Assembly: GCF_014274465.1 (NCBI RefSeq)
Contig: NZ_CP060394.1
Span: 434,001 to 498,000 of the forward strand
Source of the DNA: Alloacidobacterium dinghuense
Lineage (GTDB): Bacteria > Acidobacteriota > Terriglobia > Terriglobales > Acidobacteriaceae
Length of the DNA: 64,000 nucleotides
Direction of reading: 5' to 3'
Positions 14,878 through 27,998 of this stretch are shown here, one piece after another. Position numbers and translations under genes: made by a program. How positions within the stretch are numbered: the stretch's first letter is position 1; every line of letters starts with the position of its first letter. A model generated the notes under the pieces. The model saw nothing but the letters and a program-made list of their open reading frames with translations, was not told the DNA's origin and did not search any database.

Positions 14878-14965
14878 GCCGGGATGGCGGAACTGGCAGA
14901 CGCAGCGGACTCAAAATCCGCCGACCCTTGCGGTCATGGGGGTTCGACCCCCCCTCCCGGCACCA
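14878..14965 (+). tRNA. tRNA-Leu (anticodon CAA)
   Basis: An 88-base tRNA with acceptor GCCGGGA paired with TCCCGGC, anticodon stem GCGGA/TCCGC enclosing CTCAAAA (CAA), a long variable arm (class II, as expected for Leu), T-arm with GGTTCGACCCC, discriminator A and encoded CCA. No integrase or duplicated 3' end is seen around this tRNA. Confidence 0.97.
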
Positions 14966-15044: not shown

Positions 15045-16250
15045 ATGTTCCGACTGCTGCGATCGTTTCTCTTTACTTATATTTTCTCTGGATTGTTACT
15101 TGCCAGTTGCGCAGTTGGGCAGACAATCTCTGGTCTTACACCTTCAAGCATCGCTGCGGGAAGCGGCGGCTTTGTCCTCACCGTTACCGGAGCCGGATTT
15201 AACTCAAATTCGGTCGTGCGGCTTTACACCACAAATGGAGTGCAGACGCTCCAGACATATTTCGTCAACAGTAATCTGCTGATGGCGGGGGTCACTGCTA
15301 TCGAGATTGAGAATCCTGGGACACTGCAGGTCGATGTCGCCGACTATTCAACTCAATCGTCCTCGAGCTTAGCGAGTCTGACAGTCACAGGTTCTGGCTC
15401 TAGTTCAGGGTCGGGTTCTGGCTCAGGATCTGGATCCGGTTCGGGATCTGGTTCAGGATCTGGCTCAGGATCTGGATCCGGTTCGGGGTCTGGTTCAGGA
15501 TCTGGCTCCGGCTCCGGATCTGGATCCGGTTCTGGCTGCTATGGGTGTGTCACGCCCGGCGGTGGTTCTGGTTCTGGTTCTGGTTCGGGCTCGGGTTCGG
15601 GCTCAGGATCTTCGGGCGGCTCGTCAGGTGGCGGTTCAACATCGAGTCCTTCAGGATCGCCTCTACTGGTAACGGTGACGTCGCCCTCTCCAAACCAATC
15701 GGTAAATGGATCGGTTACGATTCAGGCCACGGTCGCGCAGACAAGTAACACCGACGGAAGCGTTTACAGCTGGGCAATCTTCGATGGAAGCAATCTGTTG
15801 TGGGTCGATGAAAATCCGGATTCGGCGATCAACGTTAGTCTCGCGTTGTCACAAGGGTCCCATACCCTCAAGGTCGTGGCCTACGACGATTCCTTCACAG
15901 CCTCAACCGCGACTGTCCCTGTAACCGCCGCCGCATCGGGAATCACGACGCAATGGCAGGCGTGCATGTACACGAGTAATGGTCAGCAGTATCAGGCGAT
16001 GAGAATTTCGCCGAGCGCAACGCTAACCGGGGTGCTGCAGTCGCAGATGTTCTGGAACTCAAACTGCGACCCGAATCAGTGGACCGACCAACTGAACGAT
16101 GTGGGCCAAACGATGACGTTCGGTGCGGGGTCGAGTTGGTTGTACTGGTTTATTCATCGCGCGGACATGCCGAATGTCTCGGCAGTCTGGACGATGGGCA
16201 ATCAGACCTCAGGCTGTGTAAATTACAACACCGCTCCAACTTGTAATTAA
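15045..16250 (+). CDS. exported TIG-like protein with a long Gly-Ser linker
   Basis: A 401-residue secreted or lipid-anchored protein. The N-terminal signal ends [10 protein letters not shown], which fits a lipobox with Cys22 or signal peptidase I cleavage after it. Residues 27-114 look like an IPT/TIG immunoglobulin fold ([20 protein letters not shown]). Residues about 115-200 are almost pure Gly-Ser, broken once by [11 protein letters not shown] second Ig-like domain follows ([20 protein letters not shown]), then a C-terminal domain with several Cys and Trp ([19 protein letters not shown], ending [11 protein letters not shown]). Likely surface-exposed with a flexible spacer; binding partner unknown. 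Monocistronic, downstream of tRNA-Leu. Confidence 0.8.
15390..15636 (+). repeat. low-complexity (Gly-Ser)n coding repeat
   Basis: Tandem six-base units of GGN TCN type, with third positions varying among T, A, C and G, fill 15390-15537 and again 15561-15636. They are split by 23 bases encoding a short Cys-containing insert. The synonymous variation suggests an older, selected array rather than recent slippage, though the unit composition makes length change likely. Confidence 0.85.
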
Positions 16251-16332: not shown

Positions 16333-16626
16333 TTAATCGGCCTCTGTACAGTCGATGCGCTCTTGCAATTCTTCTAACAAATGCTTTGTGTAAACACCTG
16401 ATGCAACAAATTTGGCTCGTTGACGGAGCATCTTGAGGAGAACATCCTCCCCCATCTTGTCGATCAAGATCACATCGCTCAGATCAACGACACGTAACCG
16501 GTCTGAACACCGCTCCAGCGATTCACGCCAGGTTGCGTTCAGCTCTGAAGCAAACTCTCCAGTTAGCTGGCCCTGAAGAATCCATTTCTCTTCCGATGGG
16601 CCTTCGACAACCGTAATTCTGAACAT
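16333..16626 (-). CDS. STAS-domain-like protein (anti-sigma antagonist fold)
   Basis: About 97 residues when started at ATG 16626 (MFRITVVEGP); the frame extends to an ATG at 16701, and neither start has a strong ribosome site. The pattern WILQGQLTGEFASELNATW followed by LRVVDLSDVILIDKMGEDVL matches the beta-alpha core of STAS proteins such as SpoIIAA/RsbV. The usual phospho-acceptor Ser/Thr at the start of helix 2 is not visible (IDKMGED), so it probably does not follow classical partner switching. It is 246 bases downstream of the sigma-54 activator on the same strand and may be co-transcribed. Confidence 0.6.
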   Translation of the reverse strand: MFRITVVEGPSEEKWILQGQLTGEFASELNATWRESLERCSDRLRVVDLSDVILIDKMGEDVLLKMLRQRAKFVASGVYTKHLLEELQERIDCTEAD

Positions 16627-16871
16627 TGCATTACTTGGTCGCGAGCCAGAGCATTCCGTTCTTCCCGAATCGTTTGAATTCAAGTGAGTCTCGGAAAGCA
16701 TTCCGATGTACTTTGTCGAAGTTTACGCAATCAATCTGCCAGAGACTGATCCAATAATTTGAAGTTAGGTAGTTTAATTAAAGGGACTTAGTCGGCCTGC
16801 GTCGAAATATTAGACAACAGTCCTCCGATCATGATGCTGACCAACTGGCACCTCGCCAATATGTTGGCAGG

Positions 16872-18965
16872 CTACTGGCGAGACGGACGTGAGATTCCGA
16901 GCTTTCGCATTCGGAACTGGAGGGTGGGCCGCTTCATCCCTAGCTTGGCAGCTGCGCCGTTTGGGCCGGAAAAAACCCAGTTTGTTTGATTGAGAACATA
17001 CAGAATATGTCGCCTTTCCATTTCTTCCAGAGTCATCATGCCATTGCTCCCGCCACTATCCCCGGATCTTGGCTTTAGATCCGCAATAGGTACCTTAAGT
17101 TCTTTTCCTGACGACAAAATCACAGCTCGCTCTATGACATTCTGCAGCTCACGAATATTCCCCGGCCACGGATAGCGGACAAGAGCATTCATCGTCTCGG
17201 ATGAGATTGTTTCGATCTGGCGCTTCATCAAGCGATCAAAATGCTGAGCGAAATGTCTGACGAGGAAGGGAATATCTTCGGTCCGTTCGCGGAGTGGAGG
17301 TACGTAGATGGGAAAAACATTTAACCTGTAAAACAAGTCAGAGCGGAACCTTTGATTATCAACCATCGCATTCAAATCGCGATTCGTTGCAGCAATGAGC
17401 CGAGCATTCGTGTGGACTGTGCGAGAGCTGCCCAGCCGCTCAAACTCTCTTTCCTGCAGGACACGTAACAGTTTGGGTTGCAAATCCAACGGTATCTCTC
17501 CGACTTCATCGAGAAATATCGTACCCTGTGAGGCTAGTTCGAAGCGCCCAATTCGCTGTGCAATCGCCCCGGTAAAAGCACCTTTCTCATGACCAAAGAG
17601 CTCACTTTCCAGTAGGCCTGTTGGAATGGCTGCGCAGTTGAGCTTCACGAAGGCATGAGACTTGCGCATGCTTAATTTGTGCACGGCACGTGCGATCAGT
17701 TCTTTTCCGCTTCCCGTTTCGCCATAGATCAGCACAGTGGAGTCGGTTGGGGCTACCGCCTCGACCTGACGCAGAACTTTCCGGAGGATCGTGCTGTTAC
17801 CTACAATTTCCTCAAAGTTAAGCTCACTGCGGATCTCATCCTCCAGATAGAGCTTTTCCTGCGCGAGTTTGTCGGAGAGTTCCGAGATCTTGTGATAAGC
17901 GAGCGCATTGTCGATCGCGATTGCAACTTGTCCGGCGATCTGAAGTAGAAAGTCCACATCCTGCTCAGTGAATGAGTCCTTGCGAAGTCTGGCTACGGAA
18001 AGGACGCCGAGCGCACGGCTGGAGCGGACTAGGGGTAGGAAGCATGTCGCTTGAAATCCCTCCTGCGAAGTCAGCTTCCGATCGTCAGTCTTGGTACGTT
18101 CCTCACTTATGTCACCAACCCAAAGCTTCCCACTACGAAAGACCTGTCCCGGAAGACCATCGGGTGAAACCATAACTCCGGGCCGAATCGTCCCTTTGCT
18201 GTCTGGAAAGTCCAACGCGTAAACTTCCAGGCATCCGTTGTCGCTTGTCGGCAGCATCAAGGCGACAGCATCCAACTGCATGACATTGCGAATACTGGGG
18301 GATATCGCCCGGATCAATTGTTTCAGTTCTAGGTTAGACACAACGCTGTTATTTAGGTCGAGAATGAGCTTGAGCTTTGTCCGTTCATTTTCGAGTTGCA
18401 GCCCTGCTTTTTCTGAAGCCGCGAAATGCAACCTGTCATCAAGCGCCAGAGCTGCATAGTCTACAGCCAGCGTAAGAAGGGAAATTTCCTCTTCAGAGAA
18501 GGCATTTTCAGTAGAACGGCCGACACATATCGCTCCCAAACGGCGAAGCGCTGTACTAAACGGGAGAACACAAATTGACCGGTCTCCATTCGACCGAAAC
18601 CACTCCAACGTATCTGTAAACCGTGTCTCAGACGCAACAGAACCGATCACCAACGGCCTCTGATATTCATGGACCCAGCGGTATGCTGAATGCTCACCTG
18701 AACTTAGATCGATCGGGGAAATTAATCCTTGGCCTCTGCTGTCAGCAATCAGGCTCACGCCAGCGTGCGAACCATCTTCTCGCATGATGAGATAGGTGTC
18801 AGCTGGGATCAGATTGTGAAATACGGATGGCAGCGACTGCAGCAAATGTTCCGCGCTGGAAAACTGGCTCAGATGCCGAATAAAGCGCAGAAAGACGTCA
18901 TCGTCCTCGATCTGTAAGCGAGTGGGAGCGGAACTGGATACACACATGTCGTCCTGCGTCTCCAT
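16872..18965 (-). CDS. sigma-54-dependent transcriptional activator with two GAF domains (FhlA-like)
   Basis: A 697-residue enhancer-binding protein. Two GAF-type sensory domains occupy roughly residues 25-175 and 195-355 ([20 protein letters not shown] closes the second). The AAA+ domain starts near 385: Walker A GETGSGKE at about 413, the sigma-54 contact loop GAFTGA, Walker [17 protein letters not shown], and the arginine-finger region [14 protein letters not shown] Fis-type helix-turn-helix ends the protein ([20 protein letters not shown]). There is no receiver domain, so a small ligand or redox signal sensed by the GAF domains is likely. It faces a sigma-54 promoter 140 bases away that drives the radical SAM and dehydratase-like genes, its probable targets. 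Confidence 0.93.
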
Positions 18966-18983
18966 GATTCAATTCTGCTTAGC

Positions 18984-18999
18984 CCAGTCTACAAACTGG
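18984..18999. promoter_or_regulatory. candidate upstream activator site for the sigma-54 promoter
   Basis: CCAGT-CTACAA-ACTGG is an inverted repeat between the activator gene and the -24/-12 promoter, about 110 bases upstream of the -24 element. That distance is normal for enhancer-binding-protein sites. Function is inferred only from symmetry and position. Confidence 0.35.
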
Positions 19000-19097
19000 T
19001 CAAACTATAGATGATCAGCGAACTCGTTAGGTATCTTTAACCACTACAGCAATCACGATCTACGTGGAGATATAGACGACGGAAGAACAGCGTCCGA

Positions 19098-19124
19098 TGC
19101 CAATAATTTGGCACCTGGTTAGCT
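19098..19124 (+). promoter_or_regulatory. sigma-54 (-24/-12) promoter inside a perfect palindrome
   Basis: TGGCAC (19109-19114), five bases, then TAGCT: the invariant GG at 19110-19111 and GC at 19122-19123 are 12 bases apart, as in the consensus TGGCAC-N5-TTGCW, with one mismatch. The -24 box is the right arm of the perfect palindrome TGCCAA-TAAT-TTGGCA at 19098-19113. Transcription would start near 19134 and read into the radical SAM gene at 19317. The neighbouring sigma-54 activator makes the call much stronger. Confidence 0.7.
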
Positions 19125-19316
19125 TTTTGGCAGTTCTATCTGACAGATGAGCGCGTGTCTCTTAAAGAACGAGACCATCTCTTTTCTTACCACGCAGTTA
19201 GAACGAATAACTATTTCGGGGGATATGGAGAGTGATGTGCAGGGTATAACATGTCTCAAAGATTGAGCCTTTAGCGAGTTGCGCAAGACCAGAGTTTGAA
19301 CCTTTGGAGGGTCCTG

Positions 19317-20603
19317 ATGCCTGTTGAGCAACATACGGAACAAGCTTCAAATTTTCGACTCGATGTACCGTTACACAATCTCCTGACTCAACCTTCTGCA
19401 CCACCGATGGGGCTGTATCCAGTAGGCAAGCCAGAAACATTTCCCGAGCCGGTCTTTCCGCAGCGTCCAGAGTTGCTGGGGCCCGTTGAAATAAGCAACG
19501 ACTGGGTCCCGCCAGAAAAACGCAAGTATTCGCCCGGTCAGATTTATCACGCGATGCAGGGCTGGCTTTTCCCCTACATTCGATCGCGCGTTACGAAGGG
19601 CGATTTCCATCCTCTGATTGCCTATCTGTTTACCGAGTTCAAGTGCAACCTGGATTGCCACTATTGCTGGGCCTTCGACAACAAGGTCAAAGGCATGACT
19701 GAAGACACAGCGAAGCGGTCGATCGATTGGCTGCACGGCACCGGCTGCCGGGTGCTCGCTTACATGGGCGGCGAGCCTCTTCTGCGGCCAGACTTTATTC
19801 AAAAAATCACTTACTACGCGGCAAAGAAGGACTTCTGGATTTACCTGCCCACCAATGCCCGTTTGTTGCGCACCGAAGTTATCGATAAGCTTGCGGATGC
19901 TGGCATGTCGACCTTCAACATCGCTGTGGATGCGGTCGATATTAAGCCCGGTCTTCCGAAGGCCCTTGCCCCGATTCGTAAGCAGTTCGATTATCTCGTC
20001 CGCAAGCAATACGGTTACGGCTATTCGGTCTTCCTCAACATCAATATTTGCCGCAATAACCTCGACGACGTGCGGGAGCTCACGGAGATCGCACGCGATT
20101 GCGGTGTCGCCACTGATTATCACATCAATGAATCGCCATTGCTTGAACAGGACGAGCACTTCAAGCATGCAGACAACAACGTAACCTATATTACGAAGGA
20201 CGACTGGCCGTTGGTGGAAGAGACGATTCAATGGCTGACAGAAAAGCAGGATTCGGGCTACAAGATGGTGAACTCGAATTCCCGACTTTGGCAGATGGTC
20301 GACTTCATGAAGGGCAACCACTTTCCATGGAATTGCCGCGCCGGACAAAATTCCATGATTATTCGCGTTGATGGGACGCTGGCGCCGTGTTTTCCGATGT
20401 ACACTGCCAGCTATGACTGGGGAGTTGTGGGCGACCACAAGTTCGAGACGAAACAACTCGACCACCAGAAGGAAACCTGTCAGACCCATTGCTTTTCGAC
20501 GCTGAACCACATTCTGGGCTGGTGCTACAACGACCAGCGGGTGATCAAGTACTTCTTTAAGCAGCTCGCCCACGGGTTCCAGGGAGTGAAGGGGCAGATG
20601 TAG
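19317..20603 (+). CDS. radical SAM enzyme with C-terminal SPASM-like cluster domain
   Basis: A 428-residue protein; ATG 19317 has GGAGG seven bases upstream. The radical SAM core contains CNLDCHYC near residues 109-116, the CX3CX2C site for the S-adenosylmethionine-binding [4Fe-4S] cluster, and MGGEPLL shortly after. The C-terminal region has further Cys residues (NCRAGQ near 339, APCFPM near 357, CQTHC near 388, GWCYN near 401) with the IRVDGTLAPC pattern of SPASM/twitch domains that hold auxiliary clusters in peptide- or protein-modifying enzymes. The long N-terminal 100 residues are family-specific. First gene after the sigma-54 promoter and 70 bases before the dehydratase-like gene. Substrate unknown; it may modify one of its neighbours. 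Confidence 0.85.
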   Translation: MPVEQHTEQASNFRLDVPLHNLLTQPSAPPMGLYPVGKPETFPEPVFPQRPELLGPVEISNDWVPPEKRKYSPGQIYHAMQGWLFPYIRSRVTKGDFHPLIAYLFTEFKCNLDCHYCWAFDNKVKGMTEDTAKRSIDWLHGTGCRVLAYMGGEPLLRPDFIQKITYYAAKKDFWIYLPTNARLLRTEVIDKLADAGMSTFNIAVDAVDIKPGLPKALAPIRKQFDYLVRKQYGYGYSVFLNINICRNNLDDVRELTEIARDCGVATDYHINESPLLEQDEHFKHADNNVTYITKDDWPLVEETIQWLTEKQDSGYKMVNSNSRLWQMVDFMKGNHFPWNCRAGQNSMIIRVDGTLAPCFPMYTASYDWGVVGDHKFETKQLDHQKETCQTHCFSTLNHILGWCYNDQRVIKYFFKQLAHGFQGVKGQM

Positions 20604-20673
20604 CTGCAGCAGTTCGATTACAGCGAGAATCAATAATAAGGCAAGAGCAACCTTTGACTCACAGGAGAGGGAT

Positions 20674-22458
20674 ATGCCAGCTGCAGAAATCGTTCAAACC
20701 GATTTTGAGGTTGAGATTCAGGCTCGTATTGATGCAGAACGTGCGCGGCTTCGTGCGGAAGCAGGATTGGCGCGTATGCGTGAGTTTAAGAAACCGGTGG
20801 AGCGTACATTTACGGGAGCAGAGCGCGACTATGTGACGATTCTTTTCGGCGGCCTCACTTGGAAACACGAGGAAATGATCAAGGCCGTTTTTCACGGAAG
20901 CGGCTATCGCTGTGAAAACATTCCGACTCCTATAGTTGCCGATTTCCAGGCAGGGAAGGAATTCGGAAACAACGGCCAGTGCAACCCAACGTACTTTACC
21001 GTGGGCAACCTCGTGCGTTACCTGCAAGGCCTTGAGCAGCAGGGTATGACGAAGCAGCAGATCATCGACAACTACGTCTTCTTCACCGCCGGCTCCTGCG
21101 GTCCGTGCCGCTTCGGCATGTACGAAGCTGAGTATCGCTTTGCGCTGAAGAATTCGGGCTTCGATGGATTTCGCGTTCTGCTGTTCCAGCAGACCGATGG
21201 CATCAAGGCCGCGAGCGGTGAGCCAGGGCTGAAATTCAGCGTCGATTTCGGGATGGGCATGCTCAACGCGCTCAATCTCGGCGATGTGCTGAACGAACTG
21301 GTCTACCAGGTTCGTCCCTTCGAAGTGAGGAAGGGTGAGACAGATAAGGTCATTCAGCAGGCGGCAAAAACACTGACAGATACCCTGCGTGATAGAAAGC
21401 GCTGGCACATTAACGATGCGGCGCCATCCTGGGCGAAGCCTTTTCTTGCGAAACACGACAAGATCGCGGGCATTGGCTGCACATTGGGCAAGGTTGCGCA
21501 CAATCTCTACGGCAAAGAGTATGTGGACGCTCTCCATGCCTGCCGCGACAGCATCAACGCCATCGAAGTAGATCGTCTCCGCGTAAAGCCGGTTATTAAA
21601 ATTACCGGCGAATTCTGGGCGCAAACGACCGAAGGCGATGGCAATTTCAACATGTTCGCGTTCCTCGAGCGAGAAGGTGCGCAGGTTCTGGTCGAGCCCA
21701 TCGCCACCTGGATCGCCTACATGATGTACGTTGCTAAGGAAGGCGCCAAAGCTCGCGCTGGCGCTGAAGCGCCATATCGCGATCCCAAGTGGTTTGAACT
21801 CAAGAAGCGCTTTGCGAATGAATTCAAGCTCTTCAAGAAAACCGGTGGCCTCAGTGCGGGCAGCGCAATGTGGAACTACTTCTACCATCGCACTATCAAG
21901 CACATGGGGGACACGGCGCACCATCTCATTCCGCAAAAAGAACTGTCCCGTTTGGCGCATCCGTTCTATCACCAACTTGCGCGCGGTGGAGAGGGTTACA
22001 TGGAAGTGGGCAAGAATGTCTACTACACCGTGAATCATCTCTGCCATATGGTGTTGGCGCTGAAACCCTTCGGATGCATGCCTTCAACGCAGTCGGATGG
22101 CGTTCAGTCGAGAGTCGTCAACAAGTTCAAGGACATGATCTTTCTGCCTATCGAAACTTCCGGTGAGGGCGAAGTCAACGCGCACAGCCGCGTACAGATG
22201 GCGTTGGCAGAAGCGAAGGCGAAGGCGCGGGCGGAATTCGATAACGTGCTGACGCAAACGGGCAAATCACTGGATGATCTGCGCGACTATGTCGATTCAC
22301 ATCCCGAACTGAAGCATGCGCTGTATAAAGTCCCGCATCGCGAAGGCGTGGCTGGAACGGCGGCGCAGTTCGCATGGCATGTCAGCGACCTCATGAATCG
22401 CGACAGAAGCTATCGTCGTCAGCCGCGCGTCTCGCTGGCCACATCGCAGGTGGCGTGA
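20674..22458 (+). CDS. 2-hydroxyacyl-CoA dehydratase-like (HgdB-type) iron-sulfur protein
   Basis: A 594-residue protein preceded by AGGAGAGG. It resembles the C-terminal, HgdB-like part of large CoA-activase fusion proteins. Visible landmarks are GNNGQCNPTYFTVGNL near residue 100, FFTAGSCGPCRFGMYEAEYR near 137 (CxxC, probable cluster ligands), GIGCTLGKVAHN near 267 and KITGEFWAQTTEGDGNFNMF near 308. Family members take electrons from an ATP-driven activase and carry out hard reductions or dehydrations, or, in the double-cubane cluster proteins, reduce small molecules. No separate HgdA-like subunit is nearby, so classic 2-hydroxyacyl-CoA dehydration is not proven. The partner activase is encoded two genes downstream. 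Confidence 0.85.
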   Translation: MPAAEIVQTDFEVEIQARIDAERARLRAEAGLARMREFKKPVERTFTGAERDYVTILFGGLTWKHEEMIKAVFHGSGYRCENIPTPIVADFQAGKEFGNNGQCNPTYFTVGNLVRYLQGLEQQGMTKQQIIDNYVFFTAGSCGPCRFGMYEAEYRFALKNSGFDGFRVLLFQQTDGIKAASGEPGLKFSVDFGMGMLNALNLGDVLNELVYQVRPFEVRKGETDKVIQQAAKTLTDTLRDRKRWHINDAAPSWAKPFLAKHDKIAGIGCTLGKVAHNLYGKEYVDALHACRDSINAIEVDRLRVKPVIKITGEFWAQTTEGDGNFNMFAFLEREGAQVLVEPIATWIAYMMYVAKEGAKARAGAEAPYRDPKWFELKKRFANEFKLFKKTGGLSAGSAMWNYFYHRTIKHMGDTAHHLIPQKELSRLAHPFYHQLARGGEGYMEVGKNVYYTVNHLCHMVLALKPFGCMPSTQSDGVQSRVVNKFKDMIFLPIETSGEGEVNAHSRVQMALAEAKAKARAEFDNVLTQTGKSLDDLRDYVDSHPELKHALYKVPHREGVAGTAAQFAWHVSDLMNRDRSYRRQPRVSLATSQVA

Positions 22459-22664
22459 TGCGCACCTTGCTTCGAGTTGTGCTGGAAGGCTCAACCATTC
22501 TGGCGCTGGCATTGTTTTCGGCAACACTGCATTGTGCGCTTCGCTCACTGCGAGCGCGGCGCATAGAAGGTGGGACGCCGGACGATGCATCTGGTAAATT
22601 CGCAACTTCTGCGAGCAGCCGGGCACGACGGCCAGTTTTCTTGTCTCGTGGAGAACTTCTGTAG
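22458..22664 (+). CDS. 68-residue single-membrane-segment protein, translationally coupled
   Basis: Its ATG (22458-22460) overlaps the TGA of the dehydratase-like gene in the arrangement TGATG, and its stop lies 11 bases before the activase start, so it fills the gap exactly. One hydrophobic segment is evident near residues 8-27 (VVLEGSTILALALFSATLHC), followed by a basic, disordered tail. It has no recognised family. If translated it could tether the complex to the membrane. The small size and lack of homologs known to me leave real doubt. Confidence 0.4.
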   Translation: MRTLLRVVLEGSTILALALFSATLHCALRSLRARRIEGGTPDDASGKFATSASSRARRPVFLSRGELL

Positions 22665-22675
22665 CTGAGGAAAAA

Positions 22676-25600
22676 ATGATGCAGAAATTTCTGGTTGGTT
22701 TGGACGTTGGTTCGACCACAGTCAAAGCGATCGTTGTGGATGCAGCTACCGATAAGACAATCTGGCAGGACTATCAGCGTCACGAAACGCGGCAACCGGA
22801 GAAAGTGCTCGAGTTCCTGCGCCGCATGGAATCCGAAGCTGGCATATCAAAGGACAATACCCGCATCTTCATCACTGGCTCCGGTGGTGGAACGATCGCC
22901 GAGATGGTTGGCGCGAAATTCGTGCAGGAAGTGCATGCAGTTTCTCTTGCGGTGGAGAAGCTGCATCCCGAGGTCTATTCCGTCATCGAACTGGGAGGCC
23001 AGGACGCAAAGATCATCGTTTTCAAAGACGATGAGGAGACGGGCCGAAAAAAGAAAATCCCATCTATGAATGACAAATGCGCTGGCGGTACCGGCGCAGT
23101 CATCGACAAGATCAACGCAAAGCTGAAAATTCCTGCCTCAGAGCTGTCTAACCAGGCATATCAGGGAGTCAAGCTTCATAAAGTTGCTGGAAAGTGTGGC
23201 GTCTTCGCCGAAACCGATATCAACGGACTCCAAAAAACCGGCACCCCCTCGGATGAGTTGATGGCCTCACTCTTCGAGGCGATTGTGCTGCAGAACCTGA
23301 GCGTGCTCACGCGCGGACACACATTGCGTCCGCACGTACTTCTTCTCGGTGGCCCGAATGGATTCATCCGCGGTATGCGCGAGGCTTGGCAAGCCAACAT
23401 CCCACGCATGTGGAAGGAACGCAAAGTTGAAATTCCGGATGGAGTCAAGCCGGAAGAACTGATCAAGGTACCCGAGAACGCGCAATATTTCGCTGCGTTG
23501 GGCTCGGTTGAATTTGGCAAGGACGAAGAAGCCGTGGTCGGCCGCTATCTCGGAGTTGAGAAGCTTCTTTACTACATCGACTATGGCCGTGCCGAAGAGA
23601 AAGCCGCGGCCGGCGGTAAGGGACTCGTCGCCGAAGACGCCGAACTGGTTTCGTTCAAGTCGGCCTACAAGAGAAAGAAATTCGTACCGGCAGAATTCAT
23701 GCCCGGCCAGGTCGTCTCTGGCTTTATGGGAATTGATGGAGGCTCCACCTCGACCAAAGCGGCCCTGCTGGGGACAGACGGCGAGATCCTGTGCAAGACC
23801 TACCAGCTTTCGAATGGCAATCCGATCCAGGACGCGATCGAAATGTTCGAGAAGTTGCGTGAGCAAATCGAGAGCAAAGGCGCATCCCTCGAAGTCCTCG
23901 GAGTCGGCACCACCGGCTACGCAAAGGACATTCTTAGAGATGTGCTGCATGCTGACGTAGCACTGGTTGAGACAGTCGCACACACGGAGTCTGCACTCAA
24001 GTTCTACGATGATCCCCACGTCATCATTGACGTCGGCGGACAAGACATCAAACTCATCGTCCTGAAAGATGGCCGCGTCAAAGACTTCAAGCTGAACACG
24101 CAGTGCTCGGCCGGCAACGGATATTTCCTGCAATCCACTGCCGAAGGCTTTGGTCTCAAGGTAGAAGACTTCGCCGACATTGCCTTCTCCGCGAAATCGA
24201 TGCCGTCTTTCGGATATGGCTGCGCCGTCTTCATGCAGTCGGACATCGTCAACTTCCAGCGACAGGGTTGGCGTTCTGAAGAGATCCTCGCTGGACTCGC
24301 TGACGTCCTGCCGAAGAATGTTTTCCTTTACGTCGCTAGCATTCCGAATCTAGCTGCCCTCGGCTCGCGCTTTGTTTTACAGGGTGGCACGCAGAACAAT
24401 ATGGCCGTAGTGAAGGCGGAGGTGGACTTCATCAAATCCAGTTTCCGCGCCAATGGCAAAGAGCCGGAGATCATCGTCCATGAGCATTGCGGCGAATCAG
24501 GAGCGATCGGCGCCGCTCAGGAAGCTCTGCGTCTCTGGAAAAACGGCAAACAGACTACGTTCATCGGTCTCGAAGCAGTTGCAAACATCCGCTATCGGAC
24601 AACGCGCAATGAAGACACACGCTGCTACTTCTGCAAAAACAACTGTCTGCGAACCTTTATCGACGTAGACGTAAACGGAGCAAAGCAGCCGGTCGCAAGC
24701 GACCGCGCCGCCACGGCAGAAGAGATTGCTGCAGTCGCCGCACAGCTGCCGAGCCTCGAAGAGATTCAAGCCAATCTACCCGCCGTAGAATCGCATGGCT
24801 CTTCGTGCAGCACTGGTGGCGGATGCGGCTCCCACACGCAATCTACATTTAAGGCGAAGGCAGAGCCGCTGATTCAAATCCAGGTCTCTCCCGGATCAAG
24901 CAAGGTCGTCGAACTGCCAAAGCCGGTCGAATTCCAGCCGCGCAAGACCAAGGTTCCTCTTCGCATGGGCGAGCAGCGCCTGATCATCGCTACGTGCGAA
25001 AAGGGAACAGTCGAAGATCTGGATGAGATGAAAGACATCAAGTCCGACATCGACAAGATCAAAGAAGCCAATCCCAACTTCGTAGATATCGCTGCACACG
25101 ATGTCTTCCGTCCGCGCCAGGTTGAAGTCGTCGCCGACTCTGTGCCCAGCACGAAAGGCCTCTTCGTTTCAAAGAGCATCAAAGAGCGCGTTCCTCTCAT
25201 GGAGCGCAGGAAAGACTTCCGCATCGGCATCCCGCGCCTGCTGAACACCTATACCTATGCACCGCTCTTCAATGCGTACTTTGCCAGTCTCGGCCTGAAG
25301 TCGGAGAACATCATTTACTCCGACTACACAACGCCGGAGCTCTATCGTGCCGGCGCTAGCCGCGGCGCCATCGATCCCTGCTATCCGTCAAAGATCGGCA
25401 TCGCGCACGTCTACAACCTGCTAGCGACCAAGCACAACAAGAAACCGCTGAACGCGATCTGGTTCCCGATGTATGACGTACTGCACTCGCACCTCGTGAA
25501 CCTTACTGGCTCGAATGCCTGCCCTACGGTGACCGCCACACCGGAAACCGTAAAGGCTGCTTTCACGAAAGAAAGCGATATATTCGGCGAAAACGGGATT

Positions 25601-26380
25601 CTCTATCTCGACCCGATCCTCAATCTTCAGGACAAGAAGATCTGCGCCGACCAGATGTACAAGGCGTTGGGACCGGTCCTCGGCTTGAGCCGCGAGGAAA
25701 ATGACCGAGCACTCGATGCAGGTTTCAAAGCGCTGAGTGCATGCGAGTCGGAAATCCGCAACCAGGCGCGCCAAACGCTTGACCAGCTTGAACGTGAAGA
25801 CCGCATCGGCATCGTGATGCTTGGCCGCGTCTACCACCATGATCCCGGTCTGAACCACGAGATCATGGAGGAATTCCAGAAGCTGGGCTACCCGGTCTTC
25901 TCGCAGAGCACGTTGCCGCTCGATGAAGATCTGCTGGACCGGCTCTTCGGCGAAGAAGTGCGAGCTGGGATGATCACGCATCCGCTCGACATCTCCGATG
26001 TATGGAAGAACCGCTATTCCACCAGCACGAATCATAAAGTGTGGGCGGCGAAGTTTACAGCGCGTCACCCCAACCTCGTTGCTCTGGAGGTCTCAAGCTT
26101 CAAGTGCGGGCACGATGCTCCTATCTATGGAGTCATCGAAGGCATCATCGAACAGTCCGGAACCCCGTATTTCTCGTTCAAGGATCTCGATGAGAACAAG
26201 CCTTCCGGTTCCATCCGCATTCGCGTAGAAACGATCGACTACTTCCTGCGCCGTTATCGCGAGGACATCATCAAGCGCCGCCAGATTGAGGGAGACATCG
26301 AAGCACAGCTCGCGGCCTTTGAGCGGTCGCTTCGCAAACAAGCGGAGCAGGACCATGACCTGGCGATCGCAGGAGACTGA
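22676..26380 (+). CDS. tandem acyl-CoA dehydratase activase (BadF/HgdC type) with DUF2229 region
   Basis: A 1234-residue iron-sulfur ATPase. Two ASKHA activase domains occur in tandem: the first near residues 5-270 (GLDVGSTTVKAIVV, VIELGGQDAKIIVF, NDKCAGGTGA and GKCGVFAE with the two cluster Cys), the second near 350-625 (GIDGGSTSTKAALL, IIDVGGQDIKLIVL, LNTQCSAGNGYF, GYGCAVF). Then come RCYFCKNNC near 648, a CSTGGGCGSH stretch near 700 and a DUF2229-type region from about 775 (GIPRLLNTYTYAPLFNAYFA, DPCYPSK, NACPTVTATPET). Activases use ATP hydrolysis to push an electron to a very low-potential acceptor, here most likely the dehydratase-like protein upstream. ATGATG start with GAGG upstream. 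Last gene of the cluster. Confidence 0.9.
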   Translation: MMQKFLVGLDVGSTTVKAIVVDAATDKTIWQDYQRHETRQPEKVLEFLRRMESEAGISKDNTRIFITGSGGGTIAEMVGAKFVQEVHAVSLAVEKLHPEVYSVIELGGQDAKIIVFKDDEETGRKKKIPSMNDKCAGGTGAVIDKINAKLKIPASELSNQAYQGVKLHKVAGKCGVFAETDINGLQKTGTPSDELMASLFEAIVLQNLSVLTRGHTLRPHVLLLGGPNGFIRGMREAWQANIPRMWKERKVEIPDGVKPEELIKVPENAQYFAALGSVEFGKDEEAVVGRYLGVEKLLYYIDYGRAEEKAAAGGKGLVAEDAELVSFKSAYKRKKFVPAEFMPGQVVSGFMGIDGGSTSTKAALLGTDGEILCKTYQLSNGNPIQDAIEMFEKLREQIESKGASLEVLGVGTTGYAKDILRDVLHADVALVETVAHTESALKFYDDPHVIIDVGGQDIKLIVLKDGRVKDFKLNTQCSAGNGYFLQSTAEGFGLKVEDFADIAFSAKSMPSFGYGCAVFMQSDIVNFQRQGWRSEEILAGLADVLPKNVFLYVASIPNLAALGSRFVLQGGTQNNMAVVKAEVDFIKSSFRANGKEPEIIVHEHCGESGAIGAAQEALRLWKNGKQTTFIGLEAVANIRYRTTRNEDTRCYFCKNNCLRTFIDVDVNGAKQPVASDRAATAEEIAAVAAQLPSLEEIQANLPAVESHGSSCSTGGGCGSHTQSTFKAKAEPLIQIQVSPGSSKVVELPKPVEFQPRKTKVPLRMGEQRLIIATCEKGTVEDLDEMKDIKSDIDKIKEANPNFVDIAAHDVFRPRQVEVVADSVPSTKGLFVSKSIKERVPLMERRKDFRIGIPRLLNTYTYAPLFNAYFASLGLKSENIIYSDYTTPELYRAGASRGAIDPCYPSKIGIAHVYNLLATKHNKKPLNAIWFPMYDVLHSHLVNLTGSNACPTVTATPETVKAAFTKESDIFGENGILYLDPILNLQDKKICADQMYKALGPVLGLSREENDRALDAGFKALSACESEIRNQARQTLDQLEREDRIGIVMLGRVYHHDPGLNHEIMEEFQKLGYPVFSQSTLPLDEDLLDRLFGEEVRAGMITHPLDISDVWKNRYSTSTNHKVWAAKFTARHPNLVALEVSSFKCGHDAPIYGVIEGIIEQSGTPYFSFKDLDENKPSGSIRIRVETIDYFLRRYREDIIKRRQIEGDIEAQLAAFERSLRKQAEQDHDLAIAGD

Positions 26381-26423: not shown

Positions 26424-27998
26424 TTAATGCTTCGTGTTGTCGTTCGAAGCAGCTTCCGCCTGTTGGCGTAGCGCGTGAACTACGACCCGTAACATCTCTT
26501 CCTCGGGGGCCGGTTTGCCGGTCCAGATTTCAAACTGACGCGCTCCCTGATTCACGAACATCTCGACCCCTGTGACAACCGGGATGTTCTTCTCGCGCGC
26601 CATGCGTAGGAGCGGCGTGTCGATAGGGTTGTAGACCATGTCGAAGACGAGACGTGCATTGATTTCTTTTGATTCGAGAATATGGTTCGGTTTGACGCCG
26701 TGCATCCCCACAGGTGTCGCATTCAGGATGATGTCGAATTGAGTCTTAGCGAGCTGGTCGCGTTTGAATGTCTTCGCTTTTGCCTGACGCGCCAGCTTCT
26801 GTCCGTCCTCAGCCGTGCGGTTGAGGATGAAGACTTCCGCACCCTTTTCTTTAAGGCCGAACACTGCGGCGCGTGCGGCTCCGCCAGCTCCCAGCACCAG
26901 AATCTTCGCGCCCTTTAACTGCAACCGGCGTTCGAGGGGGCGAACCACGGCCGCAACGTCTGTATTAAAGCCGTACAGCTTGCCGTCTTGTGCGCGAACG
27001 ACAGTATTACAGGCGCCGATTTTCTCCGAGATAGGATCGGTCTTCTCCAGATGCTCGAGAATATCTTCTTTGAGAGGCATGGTCACCGCGAGACCATGGA
27101 CGGGGACCTCGCGCATCAGCGTCAACAGGTCATTCATCTTCGTCGTTTGCAACGCAAGAAAGACAGCATTGACGGTTTCGCGGCGGAAGGCGGTATTTAT
27201 CATCAATGGCGAAAGGGAATACCGCACTGGATTGCCCGCCACTCCATAAACTCGGGTCGAAACGTCGATCTGATCGATGCGGTACGTTTCATGCAGCGTG
27301 CGCGCAGCGATTTGTCCAGGGCCAGTTTCTTCGCCAGGGGTAGCGGCAGCAAAGGTGAAGACACTTCCAGCGCGGATCCCAAGAACGCGGCTGATGATTC
27401 CCTGATCGCCCATGCAGATGCCGACAAGGTTAGCCATGTCACGAGCGCGTTCCAGGAAGTGCATCATGGCTACGTTATCGGCCAGATTTTTGGCGGTAGA
27501 AACGATCTTGATGAACTCAGGCTCGTATGGGCGGATGCGCTCAAAAATGCCGTCAAGATCTTTGGTGGCTGCAAAGTCATGGTACGAGATGATGAGGGCC
27601 GCACCGCGCGCGCGAAGCTTCTCAAGTTCATTGGCCTTGATGGCTTCTGCCGTCTGAAGCTCGATATCCACCATGTGGAAGCCGGAAGACGCCGCCTTCT
27701 GCAGAATCTCCAGTTCGTCTGCAATTTTGCCCTTGAATTTGCCTCCGGCCGCAACACGACGGCAGGTAGCTACCGCGGTCACTTCACTGCGTTCGCCCAG
27801 GAAAGTCTTAAACTTAGGCAGTGCTAGAAGAGGCTTTTCCAGGTAATCAAGGCGAAATTCGAGAAAAGGGTTCTCGCGAGCAGCCGTCTCGGCCTTTTCG
27901 ATCATTTCTGTCGGAGTAGACCCGATAATGGCTACGCAAACTTTTCCGATCCGCGATCGGAGGTACTGGGGCGAGAGTGCAGCAGCGACATGATTCAT
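26424..27998 (-). CDS. aroDE: bifunctional 3-dehydroquinate dehydratase / shikimate dehydrogenase
   Basis: A 524-residue fusion catalysing shikimate pathway steps 3 and 4. Residues about 20-240 are a class I AroD barrel: EFRLDYLEKP near the N-terminus, the catalytic His in ISYHDF, and the Schiff-base Lys in EFIKIVSTAKN. Residues 250-510 are AroE: NPVRYSLSPLMINTAFR with the shikimate-binding Ser residues, MPLKEDIL with the catalytic Lys, ACNTVV, the NADP-binding loop LGAGGAARAAVFGL and NATPVGM. The start at 27998 gives a normal AroD N-terminus. It is convergent with the activase gene. The same fused order is known from plants and some bacteria. Confidence 0.95.
   Translation of the reverse strand: MNHVAAALSPQYLRSRIGKVCVAIIGSTPTEMIEKAETAARENPFLEFRLDYLEKPLLALPKFKTFLGERSEVTAVATCRRVAAGGKFKGKIADELEILQKAASSGFHMVDIELQTAEAIKANELEKLRARGAALIISYHDFAATKDLDGIFERIRPYEPEFIKIVSTAKNLADNVAMMHFLERARDMANLVGICMGDQGIISRVLGIRAGSVFTFAAATPGEETGPGQIAARTLHETYRIDQIDVSTRVYGVAGNPVRYSLSPLMINTAFRRETVNAVFLALQTTKMNDLLTLMREVPVHGLAVTMPLKEDILEHLEKTDPISEKIGACNTVVRAQDGKLYGFNTDVAAVVRPLERRLQLKGAKILVLGAGGAARAAVFGLKEKGAEVFILNRTAEDGQKLARQAKAKTFKRDQLAKTQFDIILNATPVGMHGVKPNHILESKEINARLVFDMVYNPIDTPLLRMAREKNIPVVTGVEMFVNQGARQFEIWTGKPAPEEEMLRVVVHALRQQAEAASNDNTKH

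Follow-up and report, generated by a model that had tools for sequence, protein, structure and literature searches.

We analyzed a 64,000-nucleotide stretch (the window) of the single-contig, 6.27-Mb genome of Alloacidobacterium dinghuense and found in it a gene module that probably encodes an inducible ester-to-ether lipid reductase, organized as a split PlsA/Ger-family enzyme, together with a radical S-adenosylmethionine (SAM) partner linked to ether lipids. Enzymes of the PlsA/Ger type are used by anaerobes to turn ester lipids into tougher ether lipids. The module consists of a STAS gene and an activator gene on the minus strand, followed on the plus strand by genes for a radical SAM protein (RSAM), a reductase half (HGDB), a small peptide and a double activase (DACT). 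The five proteins listed in an earlier, sequence-only reading of this DNA (activator, radical SAM protein, HgdB-like protein, 68-residue peptide and double activase) were all found in the window. That reading considered the substrate undescribed, whereas HGDB-DACT resembles reductases of the PlsA/Ger kind, which convert ester into ether lipids, and not the CoA-ester enzymes.

DACT (1234 aa; 22676..26380, + strand) carries two ASKHA activase domains within a single chain (two PF01869 matches), each with both bridging-cluster Cys, and a PF09989 (DUF2229) domain after both of them (E 1.7e-45). HGDB (594 aa; 20674..22458, +) is a CGPC protein of the Red2 type. For comparison, PlsA-like references were taken from plasmid-collection records of Listeria, Collinsella, Haliovirga, Acetoanaerobium and Subdoligranulum, with a more distant one from Paraclostridium; these were named PlsA-like by architecture, and validated Ger or Clostridium perfringens sequences were not among them. 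A review reports plsA/plsR orthologues for Listeria (PMC9702350). Alignment with hhalign showed that DACT is colinear with Act1-Act2-Red1 of the references (977 columns, E 3e-149) and that HGDB aligns with Red2 at their C-terminus (E 1.5e-29 over 400 columns). By the same method, DACT showed no match to HGDB. Eleven Cys of DACT were present in all 13 window-type rows, 5 PlsA-like rows and 6 rows of a further lineage (FAR): C135, C174, C477 and C516 in the activases, C650, C653 and C657 in the linker, and C774, C902, C949 and C1144 beyond it. The four activase Cys were present in every row compared; the Paraclostridium protein lacked the linker Cys and C774. The Cys conserved in HGDB are C80, C103, C142, C145 and C468, and the last four line up with Cys of PlsA Red2. 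The colinear alignments and the shared Cys give good support for placing HGDB-DACT in the PlsA superfamily, and the two proteins are predicted to be the halves of a split PlsA/Ger-family enzyme. In Subdoligranulum, a 458-aa gene comes after the long PlsA-like chain, an arrangement split in the manner of HGDB/DACT, and the PlsA-like gene of Collinsella is adjoined by a TetR-like gene.

PlsA is described either as one chain or as a plsA-plsR split, with Act1, Act2, Red1 and Red2 (PMC12838417). As far as it is described, the plasmalogen synthase of C. perfringens, Enterococcus and Listeria shares with the window pair the Act1-Act2-Red1 plus Red2 composition, the cluster Cys and the possibility of a two-gene split. 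The window pair differs in that the reductase gene precedes the activase gene, in its larger halves (594 and 1234 aa), and in that its genes are under sigma-54 control and are joined by one for a radical SAM protein and one for a small hydrophobic peptide. The glycerol ester reductase Ger of Thermotoga maritima and Desulfatibacillum alkenivorans, compared by its description, is likewise PlsA-like with two PF01869 activase domains, but the D. alkenivorans enzyme is given as a single 159-kDa chain, whereas the window enzyme is split.

In the proposed enzyme, the fused HgdC-like ATPase pair of DACT would share one [4Fe-4S] cluster, and DACT would use ATP hydrolysis to push single, very-low-potential electrons to clusters in both reductase halves, namely its own DUF2229 end and HGDB. 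The substrate would be an acyl-glycerol lipid of the membrane, whose ester carbonyl the reductase halves would reduce with elimination of water, yielding a vinyl ether or, upon further reduction, an alkyl ether. The mechanism proposed for PlsA comprises two electron reductions, protonation and loss of water (PMC8788747). The 68-aa peptide (22458..22664, +), which has a hydrophobic stretch by eye and whose start overlaps the HGDB stop, may hold the complex at the membrane. Like the window, 7 of 11 relatives read have a short hydrophobic open reading frame of diverged sequence behind HGDB; it was absent in L187, L191 and L192, and L193 has RSAM in its place. The reductase type put forward by the sequence-only reading, inducible, ATP coupled and of low potential, is one that the present data support.

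Ordinary 2-hydroxyacyl-CoA dehydratase or benzoyl-CoA reductase chemistry appears very improbable. It is true that the best PDB matches of DACT are HgdC and related activators, and that a Foldseek search with the AlphaFold model of HGDB (mean pLDDT, the predicted local distance difference test, 83) gave BzdNO and the double-cubane oxidoreductase (DCCP) as the best credible matches, both weak (E 0.006-0.02; none at 0.001), and also MbdON, weakly. The ATPase activator type and, by the model, a putative HgdB-like fold are thus features in common with HgdABC, benzoyl-CoA reductase and DCCP. However, HGDB has no sequence match to these enzymes, and the window activase is doubled and fused. Neither HGDB alone nor a profile of 21 relatives had a convincing PDB relative by sequence; up to an E-value of 0.01, HGDB matched no Pfam family, HGD-D included, and no NCBIfam family, and no CoA ligase or transferase was among the 25 commonest neighbor families listed. 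CoA-ester chemistry was rejected on the missing HGD-D and PDB relatives together with the strong match of HGDB to PlsA Red2. The earlier statement that an HgdA-like partner is lacking has to be revised, in that the DUF2229 end of DACT, which went unnamed there, is the predicted second reductase half. The double-cubane cluster of DCCP uses six Cys ligands, and by cysteine count, with four Cys common to PlsA Red2, such a cluster in HGDB would appear unlikely.

We examined the distribution of the module among genomes. Of 61 close genomes, 27 gave an HGDB match at E 0.001; two of these matched via the FAR type only, leaving 25 with window-type HGDB. The window type was further found at E 1e-60 in 70 of 200 genomes of the family, four of which (G077, G084, G125 and G152) match via a shorter, diverged form only, and in 132 of 399 genomes of the class. 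A named scan turned up at least 561 HGDB places, of which it covered the 80 best; these were mostly acidobacterial metagenome-assembled genomes (MAGs) and spanned seven phyla by record title, the non-acidobacterial titles being Zixiibacteriota, (Neo)marinimicrobia, Latescibacterota, Poribacteria, Dadabacteria and Ignavibacteria. Many fetched stretches were truncated, some of them by contig ends. In 74 of the 80 loci, DACT lay downstream of HGDB and on its strand, in some with RSAM in between. Of the remaining six, five run into a contig end less than 0.9 kb away, whereas L132 is a genuine exception. RSAM was present in the fetched stretch of 21 of the 80 loci and in none of the other 59, some of which end at contig ends, and in 15 of 25 window-type loci.

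At the genome level, RSAM was found in 50 of the 200 family genomes, 49 of which also contain HGDB (Fisher p 1e-28, uncorrected for relatedness), and in 22 of the 61 close genomes, 21 of which contain HGDB. The two genes were linked within 8 kb in 33 of the 49 genomes and unlinked in 16, two of which (G099 and G179) are perhaps explained by contig ends. RSAM and HGDB distances correlate (r 0.88; 44 loci, with a few genomes counted twice), and 21 of the 70 HGDB family genomes lack RSAM. Activator, radical SAM protein, HgdB-like protein and double activase thus occur together beyond one species, which was the check proposed by the earlier reading. The module proteins are ~90% identical to those of G098 and G206, and the two proteins encoded to its right in the window are 60-69% identical, suggesting that the module is under strong conservation or was transferred. 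A genome of the same genus, G003, has the right-flank genes and no HGDB.

We next consider RSAM (428 aa; 19317..20603, +), which has a twitch/SPASM-like C-terminus. Its start is the ATG at 19317, which is preceded by GGAGG; a TTG at 19296 is less likely. The previous assignment of a radical SAM-SPASM gene held for the radical SAM domain (PF04055, E 1.3e-17), and the SPASM part stayed below the Pfam cut-off (17.9 versus 21.5 bits). The Cys invariant in 14 sequences are those of CX3CX2C plus C340, C358, C388 and C392. Only these four lie beyond the core, consistent with one four-Cys auxiliary site, whereas the SPASM domain of Gms is described as having two auxiliary clusters. RSAM fits no named family among the 25 of 56 NCBIfam matches listed (36-59 bits): the best scored 59 bits, far below any cut-off, and NF045702 (Tes) was not one of them. 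Like Tes, Mss and Gms, which act on membrane-spanning lipids, it is a radical SAM protein, but by cysteine count it does not resemble Gms, its PDB match to Tes is confined to the core, Foldseek of its model (mean pLDDT 66.7) gave generic matches, and there was no sign that it belongs to the Tes family. A role for RSAM as the membrane-spanning-lipid synthase was rejected, since RSAM occurs in 50 of the 200 family genomes and a Tes-like gene elsewhere in 176 of them.

RSAM might instead be the main catalyst, or might mature HGDB, with HGDB-DACT just feeding electrons. The near-complete co-occurrence (49 of 50 RSAM genomes with HGDB) and the covarying distances would agree with such a role, yet HGDB-DACT occurs without RSAM in 21 of 70 family genomes and with none in the fetched stretch of 59 of 80 loci, some of them cut by contig ends, making this arrangement improbable and maturation of HGDB, which had been suggested earlier, unlikely as a general rule. 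Since RSAM is tied to HGDB yet dispensable for HGDB elsewhere, the data suggest that it works on the lipid and not on HGDB maturation. Within the proposed ether-lipid pathway, RSAM would most likely modify further the (ether) lipid on which HGDB-DACT acts. The surroundings of unlinked RSAM genes reflect mostly local synteny. In L164, L167, L170 and L174 the unlinked gene is adjoined by a gene of a sigma-54 activator cluster, which in L164, the only one scanned, encodes a response regulator. A short RSAM form of ~367 aa, whose match begins at model position 62-71, was observed in L164, L165, L167, L171, L173 and L175, beside methyltransferase and 4HBT thioesterase genes and unlinked to HGDB.

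The link to membrane lipids was investigated through Tes-like radical SAM genes, which possibly encode a membrane-spanning-lipid synthase. A Tes-like gene (E 1e-40) was found in 176 of the 200 family genomes, in 22 of which the Tes match is above the cut-off; G035 has such a match and no HGDB. The copy in the window genome (G000:C1:4654683-4656242, -; open frame ~700 aa) lies far from the module. A radical SAM motif scan of 103 loci yielded two (L131 and L138) with a Tes-like gene one gene from HGDB-DACT. Against NF045702, which has a cut-off of 450 bits, the encoded proteins score 317 and 320 bits, and that of L138 matches the solved Tes at 4e-63. In L138, from a Bryobacteraceae MAG, HGDB-DACT, the Tes-like protein and two more radical SAM genes are packed together (L138:2618-12630). 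An HpnR-like B12 radical SAM gene lies nearby in L099, with a relative in L100.

In subdivision 1, iso-diabolic acid is reported as common and its ethers as rare (PMC13274423). The near-universal Tes-like gene is as expected if its enzyme makes the common iso-diabolic acid, and HGDB shows the patchiness of the ether forms. The same source reports that Edaphobacter aggregans makes branched glycerol dialkyl glycerol tetraethers (brGDGTs) at low O2 and that brGDGTs were not found in Acidobacterium capsulatum (PMC13274423); both species are Acidobacteriaceae by taxonomy. G512, which would fit E. aggregans, carries RSAM-HGDB-DACT, and G074, which would fit A. capsulatum, is not among the 70 HGDB family genomes. 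Two activase domains have also been associated with ethers of the alkyl and not the vinyl kind (PMC13274423), an argument that we give little weight because the PlsA-like references also have two.

These observations raise the tentative possibility that subdivision-1 Acidobacteria make brGDGTs in two parts, with this module as the ether-forming one that can be switched on. The Tes-like enzyme would make membrane-spanning ester lipids, the sigma-54-induced HGDB-DACT would convert them to ethers once the GAF activator senses a signal such as oxygen limitation, and the RSAM family would add an ether-lipid-specific change (cross-link, methylation or similar). The ether lipids of the brGDGT type are standard soil and lake palaeothermometers, and the module offers a candidate, open to testing, for a step still missing from the synthesis of these bacterial climate thermometers. 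If this reading is true, the cassette would identify the ether-forming step in the family to which Edaphobacter and Silvibacterium belong, along with the switch for that step and a new partner enzyme, and would allow a forecast of the strains that produce ethers and of when they do so. The brGDGT pathway in Acidobacteria has been called unclear (PMC11868695). Because PlsAR homologues were already proposed for Solibacter usitatus (PMC10087280), the general idea of a PlsA-type ether step is not new; this gene set was not described in the literature searched, which took in few subscription papers.

A substrate other than a membrane glycerolipid for this PlsA-family, ATP-driven reductase is rather unlikely in our estimate, but several findings weigh in its favor and against the lipid assignment. 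In an unrooted tree built without validated Ger or C. perfringens sequences, three groups were seen, namely the window type, which forms a branch apart from the PlsA-like references, the PlsA-like proteins, and FAR with the Paraclostridium protein. The FAR lineage has the same architecture at 26-29% identity to both other groups; since FAR has no known substrate, architecture alone does not fix the substrate, and among the three lineages substrates are known for PlsA/Ger alone. The window type shares only 29-31% identity with the PlsA-like references, and HGDB is in no named family. A neighbor survey (117 of 150 proteins listed from the first 53 usable loci, nearly all acidobacterial) showed no enrichment of lipid genes, no Pfam family occurring in more than 3 of the 117 proteins. 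Proximity of Tes-like genes to HGDB-DACT is limited to two loci, only two lipid phenotypes were set against genomes, with both identities deduced by us, and the single G512 fit is weak because 11 of 62 genomes of that genus have HGDB. On the other side, the Tes-like genes one gene away in those two loci, the hydrophobic peptide, the ether-like patchiness of HGDB and the fit to the two phenotypes, within the limits just given, speak against a non-glycerolipid substrate. FAR pairs (about 1050 + 445 aa) were observed in six loci (L050:10671-15106 and L059-L063), and the pair in L050 is divergent from the window-type pair there.

We then examined the regulatory layout of the proposed lipid reductase operon. 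The activator (697 aa; 16872..18965, -) is a GAF-GAF-AAA+-Fis protein of the sigma-54 type (PF01590 in two stretches, PF00158 and PF02954) and is FhlA/NifA-like, scoring 564 bits against the FHL activator model (cut-off 830). Between activator and RSAM lies the enhancer TGCCA-N6-TGGCA-N14-TGGCA (19098..19132, +), whose exact form occurs only once in the genome. Of 13 relatives scanned, 10 have the exact element at this place, which together with the window makes five genera. When two mismatches are allowed, the genome has 24 matches, against 11 for a reversed control. A -24/-12 promoter facing the operon, which the sequence-only reading had proposed and placed nowhere, was located 93 bases past the enhancer (TGGAGAGTGATGTGCA; 19226..19241, +), and its position is kept in relatives: a TGG-N9-TGC[AT] site lies 87-97 bases past the enhancer in all 11 loci and is the sole match of TGG-N9-[TCA]GC[AT] in the 180 bases searched in each, the density of this pattern being 0.0004 per base (four of the loci). 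The best textbook match, TGGCAC-N5-TNGCT at 19109-19124 (1 in the window, 0.18 expected), was rejected as the promoter, as it overlaps the conserved enhancer and the position-conserved promoter is that at 19226-19241. A promoter score of at least 9 was reached by 19% of 111 operons and 12% of 647 controls, weakly above control.

The genome has one rpoN match, and with activator, enhancer, -24/-12 promoter and rpoN all present, the module is under apparent sigma-54 control. The GAF-domain activator would switch on transcription at the sigma-54 promoter. Three relatives, L218 (G512), L221 (G380) and L037, have neither the enhancer element nor an adjacent activator, indicating that this control is a local feature; L037 has a partial activator match 5 kb away.

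The STAS-domain gene (122 aa; 16333..16701, -; PF13466 E 0.0012, below cut-off) is part of the same unit as the operon and the activator, and it adjoins the activator in L066, L187, L188, L219, L220 and L222-L225. A sigma-54-type promoter, TGGCAGATTGATTGCG (16726..16741, -), was read from the sequence upstream of it. An enhancer-like 35-bp stretch (16835..16869, +), which matches with two mismatches, lies 93 bases from this promoter, the same spacing as in the operon and in the opposite orientation; it is reversed relative to STAS because it fits the operon enhancer pattern on the plus strand. Similar promoters and enhancer-like stretches were seen by eye in L066, L187 and L188. The STAS gene is likely a second target of the activator, which would probably drive it along with the operon.

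On its right, the module ends ahead of a convergent gene for a type I 3-dehydroquinase-shikimate dehydrogenase fusion (window 26424-27998, -). On the left, a long Ser-Gly repeat protein with an apparent signal sequence by eye is encoded beside the STAS gene (window 15045-16250, +), and a tRNA-Leu (caa) gene lies at window 14878-14965 (+).

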